64,000 nucleotides of DNA, from assembly GCF_030519655.1 (NCBI RefSeq), contig NZ_JAUMIT010000003.1, positions 310,001-374,000 on the forward strand. The letters are read 5' to 3'. How positions within the stretch are numbered: position 1 is the stretch's first letter; each line of letters begins with the position of its first letter. Of the stretch, positions 16,867 through 19,016 are shown piece by piece. The position numbers and the translations under genes were made by a program. The notes beneath the pieces are model-generated. The model was not told the DNA's origin, ran no database searches, and worked only from the letters and a program-made list of their open reading frames with translations. Source of the DNA: Wenyingzhuangia gilva. Lineage in GTDB: Bacteria; Bacteroidota; Bacteroidia; Flavobacteriales; Flavobacteriaceae.

Positions 16867-17628
16867 ATGTTTACAAAACTGAATTTTTCTGTGTTGTTAT
16901 TTTATATAATGACTGTTTTTACAAGTCTTTTTGCTCAAGAAAATAATAATAGACCTTCAGATTTATTTCCAACAGAAAAAGTGGTTACTAGATACCATAA
17001 TGATTGGACAATTAAAAATTATCAAAGTAGAATAGCTACGTTCAAAAAAGATATTCCAGAGTTTGGAGATGTTTTTTTTATAGGAAATAGCATCACCCAA
17101 CAAGCAGGTGATTGGAATGAAAAGTTTGAATTAAATCACATTAAAAATAGAGGAATTGCAGGTGATGTAACCGATGGTGTGATTGCTAGGCTAAATGAAA
17201 TTGTGTATTACAAACCCAAAGCTGTGTTTATTTTAATAGGGATCAATGATTTGTTTAACATGCATCATGATTTAGATAAAAGTCATAATTTAAAATATGA
17301 TAAAATTATTCCATCGGCTAAATATGTAGGGAAAAATATCATGAAAATTGCAAAAATCATTCACCAAAAATCACCAAATACTAAAATTTTTGTAAGAACC
17401 GTGCTTCCAACCACACGTCCATTTTTAAAAGATGAAATTTTAGAAATTAATAAAATTATTAAAAAAGGAGCGCATAAAGGTTTTTATTCTGTAGTTGATT
17501 TATATAACGTTTTTGTTGATGAATCTGGTTTTATGAAAAAAGAATTAACCAAAGATGGGGTTCATTTGAATGACAAGGGCTATGAGCAATGGGTAACTTT
17601 TGAAAAACCAATACTTTTGAAACTCTAA
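16867..17628 (+). CDS. Secreted SGNH/GDSL-family hydrolase
   Basis: A 253-residue exported esterase-like protein. A signal peptide covers residues 1-~24 (hydrophobic, ending SLFAQ). The four SGNH blocks are present: S75 in GNSITQ, G99 in GIAGDV, N127 in GINDLF, and D230/H233 in DGVHLN. This subgroup includes acetylxylan esterases and platelet-activating-factor-hydrolase-like enzymes that remove acyl groups from glycans; the substrate here is unknown. A longer frame from GTG 16834 would start in the promoter and would mask the signal peptide. The stop lies immediately before the satD operator repeats. Confidence 0.88.
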   Translation: MFTKLNFSVLLFYIMTVFTSLFAQENNNRPSDLFPTEKVVTRYHNDWTIKNYQSRIATFKKDIPEFGDVFFIGNSITQQAGDWNEKFELNHIKNRGIAGDVTDGVIARLNEIVYYKPKAVFILIGINDLFNMHHDLDKSHNLKYDKIIPSAKYVGKNIMKIAKIIHQKSPNTKIFVRTVLPTTRPFLKDEILEINKIIKKGAHKGFYSVVDLYNVFVDESGFMKKELTKDGVHLNDKGYEQWVTFEKPILLKL

Positions 17629-17704
17629 TATATCTTAAAAGTCATATATTCTTGTTTATATGATAAAAAGCATATATTTGTGTATATATGATAAAAAGCA
17701 TATA
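17629..17704 (+). repeat. Three phased 20-bp operator-like repeats before satD
   Basis: Two exact copies of TATATGATAAAAAGCATATA lie at 17657-17676 and 17685-17704. A third copy, matching 16 of 20 bases, lies at 17629-17648. Each copy starts exactly 28 bases after the last. Every unit is an inverted repeat (TATATG, 8-base spacer, CATATA). They bracket the satD promoter: the first is upstream of the -33, the second ends in the -7 box, and the third covers the leader up to 5 bases before the satD ATG. This looks like an operator for a dimeric DNA-binding protein, possibly SatD itself. Confidence 0.85.
17652..17680 (+). promoter_or_regulatory. Promoter of satD (-33 and -7)
   Basis: TTG (17652-17654), 18 bases, then TATATTTG (17673-17680). 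The -7 box overlaps operator copy 2, and the start of transcription (about 17687) falls in copy 3. Confidence 0.65.
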
Positions 17705-17709
17705 AAACA

Positions 17710-18312
17710 ATGAAAGCAGTAATTACAGCAGATATCGTTAATTCAAGAGAGGTTTCTCCTGAAATTTGGTTAAAGACTTTAAAAACCACTTTACAAAATA
17801 TAGGGGAGGAATATGCCGTTTGGGAAATATTTAGAGGGGACAGTATCCAAGTTATCATACAACCTAAAAAAGCCTTAGAAGTAGCAGTTTTATTAAAGTC
17901 GGCAATCAAACAAATTCCAAATATTGATATTAGAATAGGAATTGGTATTGGAGAAATTACCTATCAATCAGAAAAAGTAACGACTTCTAATGGACCTGCA
18001 TTTGTTTATGCTGGTGAAGCTTTTGACGGTTTAAAGAAAAATACTTTAGCCATAAAAACACGATGGCAAGAGTTTGATAAAACAATCAATATCATGCTAA
18101 ACTTAGCCACTTTAACCATGGATTATTGGAAACCAGCCATGGCAGAAATTGTTTATAAACAGTTAGAAAACCCAGAAAGTAAACAAATAGAGATTGCTCA
18201 AGCTTTAAATAAAAAACAAAGCAATGTTAGCTACAGTTTAAAAAAGGCGGGATACGAAGAGATACAAGATTGTCTTCAGTTTTACAAACAAAAAATAGGA
18301 GAGTTATGTTAA
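17710..18312 (+). CDS. satD: SatD family protein with C-terminal HTH
   Basis: A 200-residue protein of the SatD family (named for the sat acid-tolerance locus of streptococci; biochemical role unknown). The N-terminal part has ITADIVNSR and a later RGDSIQVI pattern reminiscent of nucleotide-cyclase-like folds. Residues ~155-182 (KQIEIAQALNKKQSNVSYSL) read as a helix-turn-helix, so it may bind DNA. The gene overlaps the next one (DUF3307) by 7 bases, so both are co-translated. Three phased operator-like repeats surround its promoter, making self-repression an attractive inference. Confidence 0.8.
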   Translation: MKAVITADIVNSREVSPEIWLKTLKTTLQNIGEEYAVWEIFRGDSIQVIIQPKKALEVAVLLKSAIKQIPNIDIRIGIGIGEITYQSEKVTTSNGPAFVYAGEAFDGLKKNTLAIKTRWQEFDKTINIMLNLATLTMDYWKPAMAEIVYKQLENPESKQIEIAQALNKKQSNVSYSLKKAGYEEIQDCLQFYKQKIGELC

Positions 18313-19016
18313 TACTAAAATTATTAATTGCTCATGTATTGGGAGATTTTGTATTACAACCTAATAAATGGGTTAAACATAAAGAAAAGAAAAAATGGGC
18401 CTCCAAATATTTGTATATCCATACTGTAATTCATGCTTTGTTGTTATTGATATTTCTTGGTTTTCAAGTCCAATATTTATGGACAATTGTAATGATTAGT
18501 ATTTCTCATTTAATAATTGACAGTATTAAGTTATTAAAACCTTTAAAGAATAATAGGGTATTATTTTTTGCAGATCAAATAGCACATTTAATGGTAATTG
18601 GTTTGGTAGTTAAACAGTGGAATAGTTTAACGTTTGATGTAAAGAGTATTGTTACAGAACAAAACTTACTACTTGTATTGGCTTTGTTACTGTTAACATC
18701 AGTAACTTCTATTGTGTTAAAAGTGGTTTTTAGTGTATGGAATAAGGAGATAGAAGAAGTAAGTAAAGAAGATAGCTCATTAAAAAATGCAGGAAAATAC
18801 ATCGGAATTTTAGAACGTTTGTTTGTGTTTGCTTTTGTGGTGCTGAACCAATGGCAAGCAATTGGTTTTTTATTAGCTGCAAAATCGGTATTCCGTTTTG
18901 GGGATTTAACCAAAGCCAAGGATAGAAAATTAACTGAATATATATTGGTGGGAACTTTGTTAAGTTTTGGAATCGCCATTTTGATAGGGTTGACTTATCA
19001 ATATTTAATCTTTTAG
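18306..19016 (+). CDS. DUF3307 membrane protein
   Basis: A 236-residue multi-pass inner-membrane protein, mostly hydrophobic. The N-terminal AHVLGDFVLQPNKWVKHKEKKKW (about residues 9-31) followed by an H-x-x-x-H pattern (YIHTVIHALL) is the DUF3307 signature; a second SHLIID motif follows. His/Asp residues at membrane edges suggest metal binding, but the function is unknown. The start at 18306 overlaps the satD stop; a 12-codon upstream extension lies wholly within satD and is rejected. The gene ends 12 bases inside the convergent TruC-like gene. Confidence 0.8.
   Translation: MLILKLLIAHVLGDFVLQPNKWVKHKEKKKWASKYLYIHTVIHALLLLIFLGFQVQYLWTIVMISISHLIIDSIKLLKPLKNNRVLFFADQIAHLMVIGLVVKQWNSLTFDVKSIVTEQNLLLVLALLLLTSVTSIVLKVVFSVWNKEIEEVSKEDSSLKNAGKYIGILERLFVFAFVVLNQWQAIGFLLAAKSVFRFGDLTKAKDRKLTEYILVGTLLSFGIAILIGLTYQYLIF

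Follow-up and report, generated by a model that had tools for sequence, protein, structure and literature searches.

A phased array of palindromes lies upstream of satD in Wenyingzhuangia gilva, and we confirmed by computation that it is real. Its spacing recurs upstream of other satD genes, its variable letters change together with a helix of the SatD protein, it overlaps the predicted promoter, and satD itself is tightly coupled to the gene that follows. From these sequence comparisons we consider it very probable that the sites are SatD's own operators and that SatD binds the array and autoregulates the operon, most likely in a negative manner. The window referred to below is the whole analyzed stretch of 64,000 nucleotides, and coordinates are counted from its first letter.

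The window contains palindromes of 20 bp with starts at 17629, 17657 and 17685, giving steps of 28 and 28 bp and linkers of 8 bp. An earlier sequence-only reading had described three pseudo-palindromic 20-mers at these positions, two of them exact copies and one with 16/20 matches, at an exact 28-bp spacing around the satD promoter, and both statements agree with the sequence. The predicted operator site 1 (17629–17648, TATATCTTAAAAGTCATATA; like the other two it is assigned to no strand) is a degenerate copy sharing 16/20 positions with sites 2 and 3, which are identical to each other (TATATGATAAAAAGCATATA, 17657–17676 and 17685–17704). None of 2000 Markov shuffles of 17621–17709 contained a triple repeat as good as the observed one (36/40 matches, any lag between 20 and 40). 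Taken alone, a palindrome-pair statistic stands out less in DNA this rich in AT: when the 180 bp preceding the ATG were shuffled 300 times, 8 shuffles did as well or better. A candidate fourth unit at 17601 was excluded from the array, as it carries another triplet and lies inside the upstream gene. The stop codon of this GDSL-lipase-like gene ends at 17628 and site 1 begins with the next base, 17629.

In the window as well as in relatives the palindromic sites overlap the predicted satD promoter. The promoter consensus of Bacteroidota is TTG / TAnnTTTG. By match to this consensus, a -33-like TTG (17652–17654, + strand) falls into the linker that separates site 1 from site 2, and a -7-like TATATTTG (17673–17680, + strand) begins 16 bases downstream of the first base of site 2, leaving a spacer of 18 bp. 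Site 1 is located upstream of -33, site 2 between -33 and -7 with an overlap onto -7, and site 3 over the expected transcription start, consistent with the earlier statement that the sites enclose the promoter. TAnnTTTG is present in 98 of 158 confident arrays (defined below) and starts 16–18 bases into a site in 90 of these 98, a phasing that is to be read with the caveat that the TA of the site frame itself favors some of those positions.

A relative of SatD is present in 221 of the 397 genomes of the window's family. The 160 bp upstream of satD from 110 family loci, including that of the window, were each compared with themselves: self-identity amounted to 0.504 at lag 28 and 0.430 at lag 56, and ranged between 0.297 and 0.358 for all remaining lags compared (8 to 69). 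Lag 28 was the best repeat lag in 103 of the 110 loci, a preference absent among the commonest lags of Markov shuffles, of DNA further upstream and of DNA within genes. Other Bacteroidota and 80 named relatives were added to give a wider set of 207 non-redundant regions out of 231 (24 were redundant); satD start codons were chosen by script, and 9 of 50 phylum loci without a match to the SatD profile were dropped. When periods of 24–33 bp were allowed, the best inverted-repeat chain had a period of 28 in 147 and of 29 in 23 of the 207 regions; in shuffles the periods were scattered over the whole allowed range. Among the loci of another family within the window's order, 29 was the best period in 5 of 6, and it was also frequent in the loci of a distant family.

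Calling sites without any imposed spacing led to a similar distribution: successive sites separated by 22 bp or more number 277, of which 218 are spaced at 28 bp, 18 at 29 bp, 11 at 56 bp and no more than 5 at any other distance. The linkers of neighboring units are identical at 0.54 of positions compared to 0.43 between loci. Since the step is held as the linker letters drift, the arrays are not the result of mere duplication. Period 28 also outscored 29, the only other period compared here, in 40 of 40 held-out family loci, 33 of which contain confident arrays while 7 fall under the score cut. The suggestion that the phasing itself is under selection is thus strengthened by sequence comparison, the step being kept upstream of most satD genes examined. 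Conservation of motif and spacing together upstream of related satD genes had also been anticipated; the spacing is conserved but the letters are not, as the triplet described next differs between lineages.

All called sites follow a common frame, TAT-xyz-N8-z'y'x'-ATA, in which the triplet xyz varies from lineage to lineage. Positions 1–3 and 18–20 are constant at 93–99%, a value to which the caller contributes by partly rewarding that frame. A confident array was detected in 158 of the 207 loci; the remaining 49 are without one in the TAT/ATA frame. Across the 158 loci residue 175 tops the 200 columns of SatD in mutual information for each of the triplet bases, with 0.86, 1.00 and 0.56 bits over shuffles. 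Along the unit, its association is confined to positions 4–6 in the set used for the tree below (0.86, 1.02 and 0.55 bits) and is at most 0.15 bits in the core and linker outside these positions. Residues 169, 172, 176 and 171 are next among the leading columns, mixed with columns of the N-terminal domain, of which R13 and N111 rank third and fourth for base 1. The high rank of these N-domain columns is probably due to relatedness.

Two further comparisons served to control for relatedness. Pairs of loci were formed in which the first two triplet bases differ (66 disjoint pairs) and set against 66 divergence-matched pairs in which they agree. Residue 175 differs in 45 switched and 10 unswitched pairs (p=3.4e-10), followed by residues 171, 169 and 176; R13 reaches p=0.01 in the same test. 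The second comparison used an N-domain tree with 155 tips, three loci with an undecided triplet being left out, and 38 of its branches were inferred to carry an operator change. Of the 29 changes of residue 175, 18 fall on these branches where 3.6 are expected (p=9.3e-12), followed by residues 172, 171, 179 and 169; this co-change test ignores branch length and uses the other 199 SatD columns as control. In the AlphaFold2 model, residues 171, 172, 175, 176 and 179 are placed on the helix formed by residues 170–179, and 169 just before it. The codons of this putative recognition helix are located at 18217–18246 (+ strand), with the triplet-covarying residue 175, a tyrosine in the window, at 18232–18234.

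Glu175 is accompanied by C at triplet base 1 in 60/60 cases, Gln175 by TAG, AAG or TAT in 39/45, Lys175 by TCC or TAC in 14/16 and Tyr175 by ATG in 4/5. If only donors with less than 60% N-domain identity are considered, the first two bases are predicted correctly from the helix in 82 of 149 loci, as compared to 20 from the nearest N-domain and 22 from random donors. For the held-out arrays, which are new sequences from the same family and not from new phyla, the first two bases were correct in 24/33 by helix and 17/33 by nearest N-domain, the second base in 33/33 and 28/33, and the first two bases with donors below 60% N-domain identity in 11/33 and 5/33, respectively. Helices of the QSAVSQR class occur with both TAG and AAG arrays, and because of this ambiguity 8 of the 9 held-out misses are TAG/AAG swaps. 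That the letters change together with the recognition helix points to SatD itself as the binder, and the earlier proposal of SatD as the likely binder of the sites gains support at the level of sequence. In six loci two triplets (TCC and CAC or CAT, in either order) were observed upstream of a single SatD gene; such arrays are possibly specificity switches in progress.

Sites were also sought elsewhere in the genomes. TATATG-N8-CATATA is absent from the 3.35-Mb genome except for copies 2 and 3. Allowing up to three mismatches to the 20-mer yielded two further single places, with one for the reversed control, and no further near-identical site pair was detected in this genome; searches with such exact or near-exact patterns would miss more degenerate arrays. 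Exact CTG-type sites in 8 genomes are located at satD in 11 of 11 cases (one genome is without any; the reversed control gave 2). For exact TAG-type sites in 8 genomes the numbers are 16 of 27 at satD and 11 elsewhere, and as the reversed control gave 16, the TAG-type sites away from satD are at chance level.

The satD gene (17710–18312, + strand, 200 aa) encodes a member of the SatD family as judged by a profile match over the curated cut-off (PF16264, E 1.8e-10, 41.2 bits versus a cut-off of 29). Its closest named relatives come from Wenyingzhuangia species, the SatD of W. marina being 90% identical. An AlphaFold2 model with a pLDDT of 96.4 predicts a palm domain followed by a C-terminal helix-turn-helix (helices 142–153, 159–165 and 170–179), in line with the helix-turn-helix noted earlier at this end of the protein; weak matches to HTH_5 and HTH_24 are below cut-off. 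The palm fold would comprise about residues 1–120 and, according to the model, belong to the nucleotidyl-cyclase superfamily of the cyclase, GGDEF and Cas10 kind. Foldseek aligned the model to 4wpa_B (E 2.2e-4; TM-score 0.53 when normalized by target length and 0.44 by query length), and VIA to GTP cyclohydrolase III (Z 9.3 with an rmsd of 2.7 across 106 residues) and, at Z 8–9, to numerous cyclases and GGDEF domains. When the SatD profile was searched against the sequences of solved structures, the best hit had an E of 0.02 and was not significant. Two aspartates, D8 and D44, are invariant in alignments of 28 and 14 sequences and may correspond to the two metal-binding aspartates of the superfamily.

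Directly downstream, and overlapping satD by 7 bp, lies the gene of a DUF3307 membrane protein (18306–19016, + strand; PF11750, E 1.4e-28). A DUF3307-like gene directly follows satD in 203 of 207 loci. No fold similar to the DUF3307 protein was found by Foldseek at E<=0.001 (best E 1.1) or by VIA at Z>=8. The protein contains many invariant polar residues, among them D13, Q17, H38, H67, D71, D89, Q90 and H93 (numbered without the first Met), which might form a membrane-embedded site for a metal or for protons. Membership in a known anti-phage defence system was considered and rejected, no PADLOC family matching the SatD or DUF3307 protein of the window at E<=1.

SatD-like genes are also present on plasmids of other phyla, mostly beside DUF3307. 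A version of the array with 29-bp steps is seen in further Bacteroidota, and certain plasmids of enterobacteria and haloarchaea carry it as well. The Haloplanus SatD scores 110.9 bits, well above the Pfam cut-off, and that of Vibrio lentus 24.5 bits, under the cut-off of 29. The proteins of pEC34A, Enterobacter kobei, Pseudomonas fragi and Sphingomonas show no match to the SatD profile at E<=0.1 and are named SatD-like by their position before DUF3307 and by layout; the pEC34A protein also matches the SatD of Pseudoalteromonas (E 1e-5 or better). Upstream of the Vibrio lentus gene there are three palindromes with steps of 28 and 28 bp (1/300 shuffles as good). Arrays with 29 bp were found in E. 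kobei (0/300) and in E. coli pEC34A (4/300), and the archaeon Haloplanus has two palindrome pairs, each 29 bp apart (6/300). Inspection by eye revealed a pair of TACAACC-N6-GGTTGTA palindromes with a 29-bp step in Natronosalvus, also an archaeon; the downstream neighbor of its satD is annotated merely as a hypothetical protein. The 29-bp-spaced palindromes before three haloarchaeal plasmid satD genes represent two unrelated sequences, beginning GTTCG and TACAACC. Lag 28 is the best direct-repeat lag in a Segatella plasmid, Salinivibrio and Pseudoalteromonas, and by the palindrome-pair statistic the records tested from these three are not above shuffles (52, 59 and 68 of 300, respectively). No array was found upstream of the SatD-like genes of P. 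fragi, Sphingomonas and Fusobacterium.

The SatD-like/DUF3307 pair occupies nearly half of the 3.77-kb mobilizable plasmid pEC34A (1792–3481), and a SatD-like gene is also present in six Klebsiella plasmid records; the pair may therefore be selected plasmid cargo. On a Sphingomonas insulae plasmid (1242–5195) the pair, here without an operator array, adjoins a gene annotated as a Pycsar system effector and one annotated as an adenylate/guanylate cyclase-domain protein. Phage records contained no match to the window SatD or the pEC34A protein, and 11 pattern matches in viral contigs included no relative.

Taken as a mechanism, one SatD dimer would read each 20-bp palindrome, in which the outer TAT...ATA is near-constant, and its helix-turn-helix would read the variable triplets, whose centers are 11 bp apart in the same site, or about one turn. 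Several dimers would bind side by side at a fixed step of 28 bp, or 29 in some lineages; the spacing is preserved even as the linkers diverge, so neighboring dimers probably touch and would bind cooperatively. At 10.5 bp per turn 28 bp correspond to 2.67 turns, so by arithmetic neighbors would wind round the DNA helix and three steps would return after 84 bp. Bound SatD would cover -33, -7 and the transcription start and most likely repress its own satD-DUF3307 operon, a sign that fits the overlap of sites and promoter. SatD would leave the array in response to a signal, for which a nucleotide bound by the palm domain is a guess based on the modeled fold.

Spacer-bound regulators such as MerR activate, and SatD might likewise bind the array and switch the operon on by remodeling the -33/-7 spacer. 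One of the window sites does lie inside this spacer and the further sites in relatives are mostly upstream of -7, but a window site also covers the expected transcription start, the spacer of 18 bp is within the usual range and autoregulatory helix-turn-helix proteins more often repress, which makes activation unlikely. That a regulator other than SatD occupies the array is very improbable given that, among 200 SatD columns, covariation peaks in the SatD recognition helix, on the tree as well as for held-out loci.

Two readings dispense with a DNA-bound regulator altogether, and we regard each as barely credible. In one, the array arose by tandem duplication and is neutral, its units staying alike through slippage and the 28-bp unit being without function. 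Some arrays do contain exact copies, and the left triplet is common to units within an array at 0.39 versus 0.07 between loci. Neutral duplication is, however, at odds with an exact spacing across drifting linkers, with the recurrence of 28–29 bp in unrelated sequences of bacteria and archaea and with base changes that covary with a protein residue. In the other, the array works as RNA, its last copy forming a hairpin in the 5'-UTR that would occlude the region of the start codon. An RNA copy of site 3 can indeed pair with itself, 5 bases ahead of the ATG, so that part of the earlier hairpin suggestion stands; the predicted RNA fold of 17680–17760 is nevertheless not better than shuffles (z 0.01), and 67 of 95 relatives listed (98 examined) have no site downstream of -7, which would put their sites outside the transcript.

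Self-regulation of SatD by way of an operator array would be a known kind of circuit; what is new is the fixed ruler combined with a switching code, and a reader with a palm domain. Autoregulatory helix-turn-helix repressors resemble the SatD system in having palindromes over their own promoter, a helix-turn-helix reader and a second gene in the operon. SatD differs from them in its partner domain, a predicted nucleotidyl-cyclase-like palm, and in usually having at least three sites, spaced at 28 or 29 bp across phyla, whose letters follow the helix. Class III nucleotidyl cyclases, GGDEF and Cas10 proteins would share the palm fold with SatD residues 1–120 or so, whereas in SatD the palm precedes a putative operator-reading helix-turn-helix. 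The MerR, GntR and IclR families regulate several genes, unlike SatD, for which exact-site searches give sites essentially at satD alone, on a fixed ruler. Excerpts of coevolution studies on transcription factors and sites in these families present the same kind of evidence, a correlation of residues and bases (PMC5045206, PMC4494728, PMC8222616). In the literature on SatD (PF16264) and DUF3307 (PF11750) no role as operator or regulator appeared among the matches listed. Excerpts assign a SatD from Fusobacterium to a secretion-and-acid-tolerance family (PMC10326533) and mention DUF3307 as an annotation of a phage ORF (PMC8504454); an excerpted paper on cyclase-like proteins treats DUF2652, with SatD and DUF3307 absent from that text (PMC4886424).

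A more far-reaching reading, which we regard as rather doubtful, sees SatD-DUF3307 as a mobile signaling cassette shared by bacteria and archaea: the array would be a ruler that brings the cyclase-like palm domains of adjacent SatD dimers together, and release from the array would turn on DUF3307 as a membrane effector. If this were true, assembly on DNA would be coupled to nucleotide chemistry or sensing, and the joint change of helix and array would give each lineage a private address code. Under the reading we prefer, self-regulation by SatD, this little-studied family would gain a first role as a DNA-binding self-regulator. The 38 branches with an inferred operator change provide a natural experiment for a residue-to-base recognition code, and with a fixed step of 28 or 29 bp and changing letters, the way neighboring regulators sense each other on DNA becomes testable. 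Finally, the array offers a promoter handle toward the signal answered by the SatD-DUF3307 pair.
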